Assembly (NCBI GenBank): GCA_016931875.1
Contig: JAFGDX010000024.1
Span: 1-10,388, forward strand
Direction of reading: 5' to 3'
Length of the DNA stretch: 10,388 nt
Origin: Prolixibacteraceae bacterium
Lineage (GTDB): Bacteria; Bacteroidota; Bacteroidia; Bacteroidales; Prolixibacteraceae
The position numbers and the translations under genes are program-made. Positions 1,379 through 6,592 of the stretch are shown piece after piece. Within the stretch, counting starts at the first letter, position 1; each line of letters starts with the position of its first letter. The notes beneath the pieces are model-generated. The model saw only the letters and a list, made by a program, of their open reading frames with translations. It was not told where the DNA came from and made no database searches.

Positions 1379-1618
1379 AATAACCGGATAAGTAGGTTGT
1401 ATCCGTAAAAAATAAACAGGTAATGCTTTTTCTTCCGCTTGTAAATTAGAAAGCAAAAAAATTAGCTGTGATATGCTGGTTTTTCTTCCCGGAAATTGAT
1501 ATCTTTTATTTTGTGTTCAGGGCCGGTAATTCAGAGATGCACACAAGATGCCCCTTGACCCTGACATATAAAAAGTAAGTTGTAATAAAATCGGAAGATT
1601 GAAATATTTTTAAACCAT

Positions 1619-4093
1619 ATGAACATCAAAAAAAAAGGCAGTTTAATACTTGTTTGGTTTCTTTTAAGTAGTTGGTTACTTGCACAAGTTCCGTTTGAAT
1701 ATGTGCTTGTTGATGAAAACGGGCCGGAGAGCCCCTGGGGAAAAGCTACCGGAGATATCAACCGCGACGGCTTCCCCGATTTGATTGTTGGCGGATGGAA
1801 AGGAGGATTGGTATGGTATCAGTACCCCGACTGGCAAAAAAATATCATTTCAGAAGACCGGATTGCCACTGATATTGAAATGGCGGATATGAATAAGGAC
1901 AGTATCCCCGATGTTCTTGTGGTGGGCATTGAAGGACTGCAATATTACCAGGCCCCGGATTGGGAAAAACACATACTCACTCCACAGGTGCGCCTCCACG
2001 ATGTGGAAGTGGCCGATTTAAACGGCGATGGCTGGCCCGATGTGGCTGGCCGCGATCAAAAATATGCGGCTGCAAGTGGTGACACCATTCATTTATATAT
2101 CAGAGTAGACAGCACGGATACCTGGGAATATTTCACTGTTGCCTGTTCGCAGGGGGAAGGATTAAAAATTTATGATGTAAACAACGATGATAAACCGGAT
2201 TTGGTGATTGGTGAAGTTTGGTTCGAAAATACCGGTGAAATGAACCATTGGCCTGCACACCAATATACATCTTTGTGGAACTATCCGCACACCTACATTG
2301 CCACCGGCGATGTGGATGGCGATGGACTGACCGATTTTGTACTTGCCCCTGCAGAAGAAGTTGGCGGTGTGCATAAAATTGCCTGGTATAAAAATCCCGG
2401 AAATATAGAGGAAACCTGGAGCGAGCAGATAATAGTGGATGAAATTGAAACCACCTGCCATTTTGTGGGCACTGCAGATTTTAATGACGATGGAAAACTT
2501 GATGTAGCCGTGGCTCAGATGGAACAAAGTACCGACCCCGATGAAGTTTTTATTCTGCTGAATCAGGATACGGGAGAAACCTGGGTCAAACAGCTGCTTG
2601 ACACTACAGGTTCACACAGCATGAAAATTACGGATATTGACATGGATGGTGATTTTGATATATTTGGAGCCAACTGGAACAACAATTCAAAAGTGGAACT
2701 CTGGCGTAACCTGTCGGATACAATTGGCAACCACAGCGGCGCCCTCAACGACTGGCAGCGACATGTAGTTGACGCCAACAAAGAATGGGCTTCGGTTTTT
2801 ATTGATGGAAAAGATTTAAACGGCGACAGCCTGCCCGAGATAATTACCGGAGGATGGTGGTATACAAACCCGGGAACAGCCGGCGCAACCTGGAGCAAAA
2901 ACAACATTGGCGAGCCGTTAAAAAATATGGCGTGTGTGTACGATTTTGATGACGATGGAGACTACGATATTCTGGGGACAACCGGCGAAGGAGCATCTTC
3001 GAGTGCCAAATTTGTGTGGGCCAGAAACGACGGAGAAGCAAATTTTACTATTCTGCAAAATATTGAACAGGCTGACGGTGACTTTCTGCAGGGGATAGCG
3101 GTTGTGCGAAAAGAAATGGAAATTCCCTATGAAATTGCGCTCTCGTGGCATGTTGCCGGAAAAGGAGTTCAAACGCTTACCGTACCTGCTAATCCGTCAG
3201 AAGAAGTGTGGACATGGAAAAAAATTTCAGACATTTCGCAGGATGAATGTCTTTCATCGGGCGATATCGACAGAGACGGAACTCCGGATTTATTGCTTGG
3301 TACACACTGGCTGCAAAACAACCAGGGAGTTTGGAATTTGAACATACTGAGCCTGCTGGAAGAAGCACCCGACAGAAATAAACTGGCTGATATCGATAAC
3401 GATGGAATGCCGGAAGCAATTATCGGATACGAAGCCATAAATGTTATGGGGAAACTGGCTTGGTACAAACCAACCGACAGTGTAGGTGGGGAATGGCAGG
3501 AGAACATGGTTGCAAACGTGGTGGGGCCAATGAGCCTGGATGCCGTTGATATGGACAATGACGGCGATGTTGACCTTGTGGTGGGCGAACATAATCTGGC
3601 CGAACCCGACAGCGCGAACATGTTTGTTTTTGAAAACCTTACGGGAAATGCGGGAAAATGGGCCCGGCATACCGTACACACAGGCGATGAACATCACGAT
3701 GGGGCAGTAACGGTTGATATTGATAACGACGGTGATTTGGATATCTTATCAATCGGATGGGGGCATAAAAATGTACTGCTTTATGAAAACAAAGCCAAAA
3801 CGGCCATTCCTAATCACACAAATACTCAAAAAAATAGTTTCAGTCCTTTAAAAGTGTATCCCAATCCGGCGAGGGAAAAAATTGTGATTGAACTGAAAAC
3901 AAAGGCTGGAGAACCGGTTTACACACAAATTTACAGCAGTAGTGGACTGTTGGTGTATAATTCCCATGAAAAAAGCAACGGTGCTGTTCACCTGTCCACA
4001 ATTCAAACAAACAACTGGATACCCGGTGTATATATTATAAAAATACAGGCCGGCGGGAATTTTTTTTTGAATAAGAGCCTGATAGTAAAATGA
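1619..4093 (+). CDS. secreted FG-GAP/VCBS repeat protein with T9SS C-terminal sorting domain
   Basis: 824 residues. A Sec signal peptide spans residues 1-22 (MNIKKKG, then a hydrophobic stretch ending WLLA). Thirteen DxDxDG-like calcium loops follow, with first Asp at residues 46, 90, 133, 186, 231, 287, 339, 399, 442, 549, 591, 644 and 700. Most are followed by a beta strand of the type DLIVGG, as in FG-GAP/VCBS integrin-like propeller blades. Aromatic WYxxP-type motifs recur between blades (VWYQYP, AWYKNP, WWYTNP, AWYKPT), also seen in repeat proteins of this class. Residues 744-824 form a T9SS type A sorting domain (LKVYPNPAREKIVIEL ... GVYIIKI ... KSLIVK). This implies export across the outer membrane by the type IX system and surface attachment or release. 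No catalytic domain is visible, so a binding or adhesion role, possibly to carbohydrate, is inference only. The gene stands alone; the ATG at 1619 directly precedes the signal peptide. Confidence 0.92.
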   Translation: MNIKKKGSLILVWFLLSSWLLAQVPFEYVLVDENGPESPWGKATGDINRDGFPDLIVGGWKGGLVWYQYPDWQKNIISEDRIATDIEMADMNKDSIPDVLVVGIEGLQYYQAPDWEKHILTPQVRLHDVEVADLNGDGWPDVAGRDQKYAAASGDTIHLYIRVDSTDTWEYFTVACSQGEGLKIYDVNNDDKPDLVIGEVWFENTGEMNHWPAHQYTSLWNYPHTYIATGDVDGDGLTDFVLAPAEEVGGVHKIAWYKNPGNIEETWSEQIIVDEIETTCHFVGTADFNDDGKLDVAVAQMEQSTDPDEVFILLNQDTGETWVKQLLDTTGSHSMKITDIDMDGDFDIFGANWNNNSKVELWRNLSDTIGNHSGALNDWQRHVVDANKEWASVFIDGKDLNGDSLPEIITGGWWYTNPGTAGATWSKNNIGEPLKNMACVYDFDDDGDYDILGTTGEGASSSAKFVWARNDGEANFTILQNIEQADGDFLQGIAVVRKEMEIPYEIALSWHVAGKGVQTLTVPANPSEEVWTWKKISDISQDECLSSGDIDRDGTPDLLLGTHWLQNNQGVWNLNILSLLEEAPDRNKLADIDNDGMPEAIIGYEAINVMGKLAWYKPTDSVGGEWQENMVANVVGPMSLDAVDMDNDGDVDLVVGEHNLAEPDSANMFVFENLTGNAGKWARHTVHTGDEHHDGAVTVDIDNDGDLDILSIGWGHKNVLLYENKAKTAIPNHTNTQKNSFSPLKVYPNPAREKIVIELKTKAGEPVYTQIYSSSGLLVYNSHEKSNGAVHLSTIQTNNWIPGVYIIKIQAGGNFFLNKSLIVK

Positions 4094-4201: not shown

Positions 4202-4960
4202 ATGGCACAACGGTATTTTTTACAGATGAGTTACAAGGGCACCCGGTATCACGGGTGGCAGATACAGCCCAATGCTGTTTCGGTGCAGGAGGTAATGGAA
4301 AAAGCCTTATCTACATTGTTGCGCGAAGAAATAAGCGTGGTTGGTGCCGGCCGAACAGATACAGGTGTGCATGCATTGTTTTTTGTGTTGCATTTCGATA
4401 CGGAAAATAAAAATCTGGAAACCCTGAACCTGCTTTACAAACTCAACCGTTTTTTGCCGGCTGATATTGCTGTTCAGAATTTGTGGAAAGTGAAATCTGC
4501 GGCCCACGCGCGTTTCGATGCTCTGTCGAGAACTTATAAATATTTTATCTCTACACAAAAGGAGCCATTTGCCATTGAAACGGCTTATTTATTTACTCCT
4601 GCTCTTGATGTGGCCAAAATGAATGAGGCAGCCCGCTTACTTTTCAATTATTCAGATTTTACCAGCTTCAGTCGCCTCCATACCGATGTAAAAACCAATA
4701 ATTGCAAAATTTACCATGCGGCATGGGAAAAACTGGGAACACAACTTGTATTTACCATAAAAGCCGACCGGTTTTTACGAAATATGGTGCGTGCCGTTGT
4801 GGGAACCTTGCTGGAAGTAGGCAAAGGAAAACTGTCGGTTTATGATTTCAAAAAAGTAATTGAAGTAAAAGACCGCAGTGCTGCCGGAGCATCAGCACCC
4901 GCCCAGGGGTTATTTTTGGTAAACATTGAATATCCTGAGGAGATTGTTAGGGGAATATAA
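4202..4960 (+). CDS. truA: tRNA pseudouridine(38-40) synthase TruA
   Basis: 252 residues, close to the usual 240-270 for TruA. The enzyme isomerises uridines 38, 39 and 40 in the anticodon arm of many tRNAs in the cytoplasm. The catalytic motif [11 protein letters not shown] is at residues 48-58, with Asp53 as the nucleophile. Other family hallmarks are the N-terminal [22 protein letters not shown] (103-114), SDFTSFSR (151-158), FLRNMVR (191-197) and the C-terminal [16 protein letters not shown] lies directly before the ATG in frame; the ATG at 4202 is taken as the start. It is transcribed alone and converges with the minus-strand small RNAs and floA operon downstream. Confidence 0.97.
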
Positions 4961-4989
4961 GTTGTTGGTGCTATGTTTCTGTGTGAAAT

Positions 4990-5015
4990 CCTCCCTGTTT
5001 GGGGTAGTAGGGAGG
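4990..5015 (+). terminator. possible truA terminator hairpin without a T tract
   Basis: CCTCCCT (4990-4996) pairs with AGGGAGG (5009-5015), 7 bp with a 12-nt loop, 30 nt after the truA stop. No T run follows on the plus strand, so it may act only as an RNA 3'-end stabiliser. Transcripts from truA could also stop at the hairpin of the small RNA terminator at 5029-5056, which is followed by TTTT on the plus strand. Confidence 0.35.
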
Positions 5016-5026
5016 GGCTATAAATG

Positions 5027-5109
5027 AAAAAAGGATGAGTCAACACCCATCCTTTTCAACCTAACTAAACCAATAAAACTAATCAAACCTAAACTTATGA
5101 ACTAAAACT
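5027..5109 (-). ncRNA. predicted small RNA, copy 1 (83 nt)
   Basis: Transcription from the TAnnTTTG box at 5123-5116 would start at A5109 and end in the T6 tract at 5032-5027. The first 53 nt contain a single C and are rich in U, A and G, so they should be largely unpaired. The last 30 nt form a 12-bp hairpin with a GUUG loop and U6, a strong Rho-independent terminator. From the predicted +1, the first 65 nt are identical to copy 2, while the flanking DNA is diverged, which points to selection on the RNA or to gene conversion. No open reading frame of useful length lies within it. I do not recognise an Rfam family. A trans-acting antisense role is inference from the complement, which resembles a G-poor mRNA leader ending in ATG (5097-5099). 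Confidence 0.75.
5029..5056 (-). terminator. terminator of small RNA copy 1
   Basis: On the minus strand AAAAGGATGGGT (5056-5045) pairs with ACTCATCCTTTT (5040-5029), 12 bp with one G-U pair and a 4-nt loop GTTG. The T tract extends to 5027. On the plus strand the same position would be an A-C mismatch, which favours minus-strand function. It may also stop transcription from truA. Confidence 0.8.
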
Positions 5110-5115
5110 CTGATA

Positions 5116-5150
5116 CAAATATATGCTGAAAAACATTGTTGCAGGTTAAC
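5116..5150 (-). promoter_or_regulatory. promoter of small RNA copy 1
   Basis: The minus strand reads TATATTTG at 5123-5116, an exact TAnnTTTG -7 box, 7 nt before the first base of the block that is identical in both copies. GTTAACCT (5150-5143) lies 19 nt upstream in the -33 region and is conserved in copy 2 at the same spacing, although it does not match the usual TTTG well. Confidence 0.7.
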
Positions 5151-5352
5151 TAAATGTTAAGAAACATGTTGTACAGCATATTTAAAATCTATGATAATTC
5201 GATTAAATCTATATGGAAAAACCGGGAATTGTTTTGCGGATTTCAGCTCCGGAAAGAGTTTTATAGGAATTTGAGTGTATTTTTCTGTAGAAGAGTCCGG
5301 CATTTTACTGAGCAATGATTCAGGAAACAACATCAGTGAACATTTTAAAAGT

Positions 5353-5435
5353 AAAAAAGGACGGGTCAGCACCCATCCTTTTCAACCTAACTAAACCAAT
5401 AAAACTAATCAAACCTAAACTTATGAACTAAAACT
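5353..5435 (-). ncRNA. predicted small RNA, copy 2 (83 nt)
   Basis: It has the same length and layout as copy 1: +1 at A5435, 53 nt with one C, a 12-bp terminator hairpin with a GCUG loop, and U6 ending at 5353. It differs from copy 1 at only three bases, one in the loop and two in the 3' arm of the stem, and both stem changes keep pairing through G-U. It lies 118 nt after the floA terminator on the same strand, so it is expected to be transcribed from its own promoter rather than from the floA operon. Confidence 0.75.
5355..5382 (-). terminator. terminator of small RNA copy 2
   Basis: On the minus strand AAAAGGATGGGT (5382-5371) pairs with ACCCGTCCTTTT (5366-5355), 12 bp with one U-G pair and a 4-nt loop GCTG. 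The T tract runs to 5353. On the plus strand the wobble would be a C-A mismatch. Confidence 0.8.
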
Positions 5436-5441
5436 ATGCTG

Positions 5442-5476
5442 CAAATGTATGCTGTAAAACACATTTCAAGGTTAAC
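5442..5476 (-). promoter_or_regulatory. promoter of small RNA copy 2
   Basis: The minus strand reads TACATTTG at 5449-5442, an exact TAnnTTTG box, 7 nt before the identical block. GTTAACCT at 5476-5469 is conserved with copy 1, and CTTG at 5470-5467 could act as the -33 element with a 17-nt spacer. Confidence 0.7.
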
Positions 5477-5557
5477 TGAATATTAAAAAGCATGTTTTTC
5501 ATCATACTTTAAGTCAATGTTAATTCCTGAAAATTGTGTTTGAAAACGGATTTTGCA

Positions 5558-5595
5558 AAAAAAATCGTCATACGATACAAAACCGTATGACGATG
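5558..5595 (-). terminator. terminator of the floA operon
   Basis: On the minus strand ATCGTCATACG (5595-5585) pairs perfectly with CGTATGACGAT (5575-5565), 11 bp with a 9-nt loop, followed by eight T (5565-5558, the first being the base paired at the stem foot). It lies 19 nt after the floA stop codon. Confidence 0.9.
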
Positions 5596-5614
5596 ACAAA
5601 TAATTAAGATTGTG

Positions 5615-6592
5615 TTATTCTCCTTTTTTCCCTTCTTCACCCGCAATAGAATCTCTCATGGAAGTATCGGCCATAATGTTTTTATATTTCATATAATCCA
5701 TTACACCAAGGTTTCCTTTGTTAAAGGCTTCGGCAATGGCAAGCGGGACCTGAACTTCGGCCTCAATAACTTTTGCGCGTGCTTCCTGGGCTTTGGCCTT
5801 CATTTCCTGTTCAAGGGCAATTGCCATGGCACGGCGTTCTTCGGCTTTGGCCTGTGCAATATTCTTGTCGGCTTCTGCCTGATCCATTTGAAGTACGGCG
5901 CCAATGTTTTTGCCAATGTCAATATCGGCAATATCAATCGACAGGATTTCAAATGCGGTCCCGGCATCAAGTCCTTTTTCCAAAACTACCCGTGAAATAA
6001 AATCCGGATTTTCCAGCACCGCTTTATGCGAGTGCGACGACCCGATGGACGAAACAATTCCTTCACCTACACGGGCAAGCACCGTTTCCTCGCCTGCTCC
6101 TCCAACCAATTGTTTTATGTTGGCCCGAACGGTTACCCGTGCTTTGGCTATCAGCTGAATACCGTCTTTTGAAACGGCCGTAACCGGAGGCGTGTTAATT
6201 ACTTTGGGATTAACCGACATTTGAACAGCTTCAAAAACATCGCGCCCTGCAAGGTCGATAGCGGTGGCCATATTAAATGGCAGTTCGATGTTTGCTTTTG
6301 CTGCCGACACCAGGGCATGTACCACGCGTGCCACATGTCCGCCGGCAAGGTAGTGTGCTTCCAAATCATCACGGCTTAGCGGAACATCTGCTTTGGTTCC
6401 TTCAATTAAAGCGCGCACAATTACTCCCGGAGGAACTTTTCGGAAACGCATCAGAAAGAGTTGTAACAGCGAAATTCGTACACCGGAAACCAGCGCTGAA
6501 AACCAGAGTCCGATAGGAATAAAATAGAGGATAATAAAAAGTAATACAATTACTCCGATAATTAATCCCCAGGTACCAAGTGATTCAATCAT
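5615..6592 (-). CDS. floA: flotillin-like protein FloA
   Basis: 325 residues, close to the 331 of Bacillus subtilis FloA (YqfA). An N-terminal hydrophobic region (about residues 8-35) anchors or hairpins the protein in the inner membrane. The following stretch, with [20 protein letters not shown] and [26 protein letters not shown] (split over residues 51-70 and 111-136), is characteristic of this family. An SPFH-type domain covers about residues 130-235. An Ala/Glu-rich coiled segment (238-281, [19 protein letters not shown] and onward) would mediate oligomerisation. FloA-type flotillins organise membrane microdomains and influence membrane fluidity and envelope complexes. It lies 1 nt after the nfeD-like gene, the usual partner, and is last in the operon. 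Confidence 0.96.

Follow-up and report, generated by a model that had tools for sequence, protein, structure and literature searches.

The Prolixibacteraceae carry a strongly conserved tandem family of small RNA (sRNA) genes, two members of which lie in the analysed window, a stretch of 10,388 nt forming one contig of a genome (G000) that is 70.9% complete. These sRNAs probably act like FopS of Bacteroides, each copy having its own promoter and terminator and repressing SusC-type transporters through pairing at the start codon. What computation shows is the genes with their conservation and synteny, the motifs in their promoters and a preference in pairing. If the proposed function is true, post-transcriptional control of glycan uptake extends past gut Bacteroides, and the array family provides a second case for reading the evolution of FopS.

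Two tandem units and their conservation

Both units are found on the minus strand (Table 1). The first-pass annotation had described them as two 83-nt units, each preceded by an exact TAnnTTTG box and sharing an identical block that begins 7 nt past the box, at A5435 and A5109, and all of this is borne out by the sequence. The block runs for 66 nt counted from the A, one more than the 65 nt given before, with no identity (0 nt) immediately ahead of that A, and the predicted start sites are 326 nt apart. Each copy closes with a hairpin and T6, as proposed, although the stem measures 13 bp instead of 12 and carries a 4-nt loop. The flanks had been called about 25 percent diverged. The 60 nt upstream are indeed 77% identical (46/60), but the downstream regions are unrelated (28 identities, 38 mismatches), and the claim therefore holds upstream only.

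A terminator scan of positions 4900-5700 returned five sites compared to 0.5 in shuffles, two of the five being nested duplicates and one belonging to floA itself. The folding z-scores of the copies are -3.7 and -3.4, with none of 200 shuffles equally stable, and the fold of an array unit shows an open 5' part in the centroid followed by the terminator, the minimum-energy fold having weak 5' pairs.

Table 1. Features of the two sRNA units and their neighbour in the window
Feature	Position	Strand	Basis
sRNA copy 1 (upstream copy), 83 nt	5353..5435 (A5435-5353)	-	101.1 bits to model R1; in its training alignment
sRNA copy 2 (downstream copy), 83 nt	5027..5109 (A5109-5027)	-	95.2 bits to model R1; in its training alignment
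Invariant 34-nt core, copy 1	5387..5420	-	exact in 91/91 array units >70 bits
Invariant 34-nt core, copy 2	5061..5094	-	exact in 91/91 array units >70 bits
Terminator hairpin and T tract, copy 1	5354..5383	-	terminator scan; both-sided pair changes across 91 units
Terminator hairpin and T tract, copy 2	5028..5057	-	terminator scan; both-sided pair changes across 91 units
TAnnTTTG promoter box, copy 1, TACATTTG	5442..5449 (5449-5442)	-	sequence
TAnnTTTG promoter box, copy 2, TATATTTG	5116..5123 (5123-5116)	-	sequence
Promoter-proximal ATG...CAT inverted repeat, copy 1, 16 nt	5449..5464	-	by eye; missed by 91-unit pattern
Promoter-proximal palindrome, copy 2, ATGTTTTTCAGCAT	5123..5136	-	sequence and 91-unit pattern
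Degenerate direct repeat, copy 1 promoter, TTAATATT-N3-TTAAC	5471..5486	-	sequence; copy 1 outside the 69/91 strict-form units
Direct repeat, copy 2 promoter, TTAACATT-N3-TTAAC	5145..5160	-	sequence and 91-unit pattern count
Distal ATG...CAT element, copy 1, weak	5492..5505	-	by eye
Distal palindrome, copy 2, ATGCTGTACAACAT	5166..5179	-	by eye; resembles palindromes upstream of FopS
floA, flotillin-like protein, same-strand upstream neighbour	5615..6592	-	NF010186, 525.7 bits

BLAST with one unit gave matches in 37 of 61 genomes, namely in 36 of 37 genomes of the window's genus group (own genome included), which includes Draconibacterium and Maribellus, and weakly in one of 24 genomes from other families of the order. 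Genomes of the genus contain up to nine matches each. A model derived from the two units of the window yielded 91 matches above 70 bits at 21 loci, hereafter the array units. Left out of this set were a unit cut by a contig end (L055), a chance match on the reverse strand (L052) and a diverged unit (L041) that scored 45.5 bits, has an altered core and has no floA within the 6 kb available. A 46-nt stretch starting at TTTAGTTCATAA is exact in 87 of the 91 array units. The mean pairwise identity over ungapped columns is 1.00 in the core, 0.95 in the preceding 15 nt and 0.30-0.49 in the flanks, and 90 of 91 units have a TAnnTT(T/C)G box whose first base lies 27-30 nt ahead of the core. Furthermore, two terminator pairs change from GC to AT on both sides (in 9/91 and 15/91 units, with five GT each). 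An invariant core between variable flanks, repeated over 91 units and 21 loci, places the pattern of the copy pair far beyond chance. The comparison with relatives thus gave what the annotation had anticipated, a conserved promoter box and terminator within diverged flanks, and conservation follows the predicted transcript limits across the array units. Together with the two both-sided terminator pair changes and the occurrence in arrays, this supports the earlier proposal of two paralogous regulatory RNAs, which named neither FopS nor SusC targets.

The family reaches well beyond the genus. The covariance model R1, built from 17 sequences with the window's units included, matches 137 of 140 Prolixibacteraceae genomes and all 23 genera at E<=0.01; at this threshold G023, G084 and G110 are the three genomes of the family without a match. 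Among 295 genomes of the order it matched eight, namely all five Prolixibacteraceae of that sample and, weakly, G262, G350 and G422. R1 has only eight pairs, misplaces the loop gap of the second-locus paralogs discussed below and is mainly a sequence model; the terminator pair changes were counted apart from it. The description of the units as not belonging to a recognised family agrees with the Rfam search, in which no family reached threshold in the window; an L20_leader match of 20.9 bits, against a threshold of 58.7, was disregarded. The open-access literature, which makes for a weak test, yielded no description of the sRNA family.

Predicted pairing with SusC translation starts

According to the published account, FopS of B. 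thetaiotaomicron comprises 14 paralogs of ~65-70 nt with a single-stranded 5' seed, R1', followed by a terminator; it pairs at the SusC start codon and represses SusC translation, an action countered by the RRM protein RbpB (PMC11697453). For the arrays we propose a similar scheme, in which each copy would be transcribed from its own promoter with a TAnnTTTG box of the Bacteroidota type, with a palindrome and a direct repeat as control elements, and its transcript would end at its own terminator. In the 5' half, which is largely unstructured and ~50 nt long, a conserved CAU would bind the AUG of SusC-type transporter mRNAs, and flanking pairs would reach the A-rich leader and the first codons. 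Such pairing may block the initiation of translation at the SusC start, and tandem copies might serve for a higher dose or for combining inputs. In copy 1, the predicted pairing region consists of the core (5387..5420) plus the preceding 15 nt. For this scheme we infer transcription, duplex formation in the cell, repression, a signal that induces the sRNAs and any part played by an RRM protein.

The pairing was assessed from RNA duplex energies between the 5' part of the sRNA and translation-start regions from -60 to +40, with RNA accessibility ignored. Background starts were simple longest-ATG calls, some of which are surely wrong. The SusC starts were fixed before the energies were seen, by eye in D. 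orientale (G006) and by a lysine/arginine rule in the window's own genome. D. orientale has many SusC systems, with 39 of 60 listed matches above the SusC family cut-off. Forty starts were fetched, 37 of them from above-cut-off matches; two matches above the cut-off begin inside the profile and were left out. After removal of L317 (no ATG) and of L337 and L338 (below the cut-off), the 37 SusC genes used comprised 36 above the cut-off and one below it (L336). The own genome gave 49 SusC matches at 30 loci, of which 22 were used (15 of these 22 above the cut-off), three lacking a start and five weak or interrupted ones being left out.

In D. orientale, the median energy of the array consensus with the SusC starts is -22.2 kcal/mol (n=37), and with the starts of other ORFs it is -17.6 kcal/mol (n=320; p=1.3e-6). 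Measured on every third background ORF, an equal SusC difference was reached by none of 60 dinucleotide-shuffled sRNAs and by none of 120 composition-like genomic 53-mers. In addition, 25 of 37 SusC genes, compared to 93 of 320 others, have their AUG facing the conserved CAU (p=6e-6). Three sRNAs were tried on the D. orientale genes and all are reported: the second-locus sRNA gave -18.4 for SusC versus -15.3 for others (p=2.3e-6; shuffles 0/60), and the FopS consensus gave -13.7 versus -11.5 (p=6.9e-5; shuffles 0/60). The effect is weaker in the window's own genome, where the window's sequence pairs at -22.0 with 22 SusC starts versus -18.8 with 105 ORFs (p=0.0019; shuffles 0/100). There, the AUG-CAU register is found in 12/22 SusC genes versus 27/105 ORFs (p=0.009), or in 10/22 SusC genes when the consensus sRNA is used. 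Exact targets recognised through long complementarity were considered and rejected, as AACCTAAACTTATGAA, searched with at most one mismatch in seven genomes, is exact only at sRNA units; it has four one-mismatch sites in these genomes, one of which is a diverged array unit.

The start-codon register also bears on the reading that these are real sRNAs which mainly bind protein, acting as a sponge or decoy for an RRM protein such as RbpB, with SusC pairing being secondary. The reported binding of RbpB by both FopS and GibS speaks for such a role (PMC11697453), as do the presence of RRM protein genes, detected in 13 of the 15 genomes tested (two in the own genome), and the letter-for-letter conservation of a G/U-rich core. 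However, a protein sponge would leave the SusC preference and its register without explanation, and G097 and G350, which both have such sRNAs, gave no RRM match among the 15 genomes, and we regard this reading as unlikely.

We hold it to be quite unlikely, too, that the sRNAs have other main targets, either secreted-protein genes with similar promoters or leaders generally, and that the SusC signal only reflects a shared A-rich leader style of Bacteroidota. Some non-SusC genes do pair more strongly than every SusC gene (strongest background gene -33.9, strongest SusC -32.6), and 7 of 37 SusC genes in D. orientale do not exceed the background median in pairing strength. Nevertheless, the preference stays when only genes sharing the ATGAAAA-like start are compared (p=3e-4; 21 versus 55) and when the background is confined to genes with A-rich leaders (p=2e-5; 37 versus 169), and it is kept when each gene is compared to its own shuffled leader and first codons (-3.6 for SusC versus +1.1; p=1.2e-7). 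The composition-like genomic pieces likewise argue against this reading, since they show no SusC preference.

Arrays behind floA and copies elsewhere

In the window, the two units are bracketed by truA on the plus strand (TIGR00071) and floA on the minus strand (NF010186). Twenty further loci were fetched for the array layout; L057 among them has just one unit. In the window's genus the arrays hold up to six copies, arranged head-to-tail behind floA, which agrees with the earlier likening of the layout to duplicated sRNAs elsewhere. Spacing between units is ~235-285 nt, and a single larger gap of ~450-670 nt is frequent. Five arrays (L043, L044, L045, L046 and L052) have one inter-unit stretch of ~550-670 nt compared to the usual ~250 nt, and these long stretches contain extra TTAACA motifs and no recognised unit. 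At 19 of these 20 loci, floA precedes the units in the same orientation; at the other (L055) the contig ends, and truA adjoins only one locus (L048). Of the 126 records from the wider family that were examined with their available flanking DNA, 38 have an array-type core; floA is found in 21 of these, including Sunxiuqinia and Mangrovibacterium. The available DNA of the other 17 holds no floA, and some copies may therefore sit elsewhere.

A second, single-copy paralog (L030-L040), about 74-80% identical to the unit, occurs in ~33 of 37 genomes of the genus; it was not found in the window's genome, which is incomplete, and none of 82 second-locus-type records has floA in the available flanking DNA. 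Seed copies with a different terminator were further seen directly after a small ORF in L022 (1423-1489, minus strand) and L023 (1480-1547, plus strand), with no promoter box visible at either. The gene adjoining them appears, in our reading, to be tyrosine-recombinase-like, and the copies are possibly 3'-UTR-derived and located on integrated elements. Two sRNA patterns found no match in viral contigs, and phage records searched at E<=10 gave, among the best 10 of 100 records, only matches covering less than 80% of the query.

These locations also weigh against the very improbable reading of the units as plus-strand mRNA leaders (ACCTAAACTTATGAA...) or as a mobile or REP-like repeat with no minus-strand RNA. 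The plus strand does resemble a leader ending in ATG, and the 17 of 38 array-type records without floA in the available DNA would suit a mobile element, but the ATG is followed by Asn and a stop, and the T tract and the TAnnTTTG box suit the minus strand. Moreover, the core might have turned up elsewhere as a plus-strand leader or in a mobile repeat, and it did not: in seven genomes, searched with at most one mismatch, the 16-nt leader sequence is exact only at sRNA units, that is, at arrays, at the second locus and at one integrase-adjacent copy, and the position behind floA is fixed in the genus (19/20 loci). A role confined to terminating or attenuating the floA operon, with no free RNA as product, is scarcely credible: the units do follow floA on the same strand and end in terminators, but floA already has a terminator-like hairpin of its own (5594-5564 in the window), every unit comes with a separate promoter box and with an invariant 5' half, and up to six copies exceed what termination needs.

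Promoter elements and relation to FopS and other sRNAs

The array units carry further elements upstream of the box. A direct repeat of 11-nt period, TTAACA-N5-NTAAC, is present in 69 of 91 units and sits where, by analogy, we presume an OmpR-type activator could bind. The unit adjacent to floA is without this repeat in 17 of 19 fetched floA-linked loci and has an ATG-N8-CAT palindrome instead in 15 of 19; in the window, the floA-adjacent unit has neither the strict direct repeat nor the strict palindrome and the other unit has both. A looser ATGTT-N4-AACAT-like palindrome lies upstream of 36/91 array units and 11/27 FopS copies, compared to shuffled means of 0.2 and 0.1, respectively, and to 1/318 gene leaders, and it is found in none of 11 second-locus paralog units. 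In the arrays its centre falls near -61, -48 or -18, and in FopS it falls near -30 for the most part.

The TTAACATT-N3-TTAAC repeat resembles, to our eye, a PhoB/PhoP box, but a Pho box reading was rejected as no phosphate gene is apparent among 20 fetched non-array contexts. Twelve of these adjoin what we take to be a tagaturonate-reductase-like gene and four lie by what is presumably an operon for small membrane proteins, next to a glutaminyl-tRNA-synthetase-like gene; of the remainder, one lies by a secreted-protein gene and three lie elsewhere. A small secreted-protein gene at L098 (2099) has the direct repeat and matches Por_Secre_tail/DUF3244 at or below cut-offs. In D. orientale and G013, small secreted-protein genes with Por_Secre_tail/DUF3244 matches at or below cut-offs have an sRNA-like promoter layout; at L425 and L427, two such genes each have a palindrome-plus-box promoter like that of the sRNAs. 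No regulator of the palindrome could be named from 20 palindrome regions, in which a GntR-type regulator gene adjoins two sites; the reversed-pattern control of this search gave 1 to 7 matches per strand and genome and exceeded the pattern itself in G029.

Bile salts induce FopS, possibly via a regulator that the published account calls unknown, and the promoter palindrome would offer a handle on it (PMC11697453). We would guess that the arrays answer to the same regulator. A broader picture is possible, though we would not call it likely: FopS and the Prolixibacteraceae arrays could be two branches of an order-wide Bacteroidales regulon, in which one factor reads ATGTT-N4-AACAT, batteries of sRNAs with generic 'anti-SusC-leader' 5' halves shut down polysaccharide uptake under stress, and small secreted proteins are co-promoted.

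The arrays stand outside RF04319 as defined. This model (gathering threshold 56 bits) scores 77.5-80.3 bits on three fetched FopS loci and gave no match in the window at E<=5, nor in 491 bp at E<=10. The R1' seed pattern, the 70% consensus printed in the methods of PMC11697453, was searched with up to three mismatches and occurs in 55 of 295 genomes of the order and 34 of 177 genera, with no match for a reversed control; it occurs in none of the five Prolixibacteraceae genomes among the 295. These 34 of the 177 sampled genera carry the FopS seed pattern, where the published text speaks of Bacteroidaceae (PMC11697453). G262 is the sole sampled genome with both FopS and an R1 match, the latter weak. 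An exact FopS consensus seed is also found in Bacteroides phage BX-TP2 (PQ571285.1, 44817-44851).

In direct alignment, the array core is no better matched to the FopS consensus than shuffles are (p=0.72), and the same holds for L249 (p=0.32) and L025 (p=0.41); the second-locus paralog is slightly better matched (p=0.027). A likeness to both FopS and the array core is seen in two sequences from other families, in alignments that are short and T-rich: L250 aligns with FopS better than any of 2000 shuffles and with the array core at p=0.004, and L252 aligns with FopS at p=0.0095 and with the array core better than any of 1000 shuffles. Both score 32-35 bits to RF04319, below its threshold, and since they were picked from 295 genomes by a model built from the arrays, their likeness to the array is partly selected. 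In L252 (G422; 1496-2191, minus strand) the FopS-like sRNAs form a four-copy tandem array. On these sequences, homology of the array family with FopS is plausible.

The Qrr sRNAs of Vibrio, the Cia-dependent sRNAs of Streptococcus and LhrC of Listeria are multicopy sRNAs as well, and are set beside the arrays by description, having near-identical copies under common control; they belong to other phyla and have other targets, and no relation is claimed. The published account of FopS names these three as well (PMC11697453). GibS of Bacteroides (RF04182) is, like the array sRNAs, a Bacteroidota sRNA whose 5' seed is reported to pair with start regions (PMC11697453). It differs in its 142-position model, two seeds and PM2 promoter, and its model (gathering threshold 115 bits) gave no match in the window or in the 491-bp search. 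FopS and the arrays are both short multicopy sRNAs in which a single-stranded 5' seed with a CAU is followed by a terminator, with an ATGTT-N4-AACAT-like palindrome upstream; FopS has a phage copy, and two copies of the array family adjoin integrase-like genes. Pairing at the SusC start is predicted for the arrays and, by the published account, demonstrated for FopS (PMC11697453). The array sRNAs differ from FopS in their core, in their length (~83 nt versus the reported ~65 and ~70 nt), in the terminator stem as judged by eye, in the distance from palindrome to start and in their head-to-tail arrangement behind floA, the word 'tandem' being absent from the main text on FopS (PMC11697453). The arrays most likely work like FopS, and a comparison of the two seed designs would allow tests of how trans-acting sRNAs recognise mRNAs that lack Shine-Dalgarno sequences.
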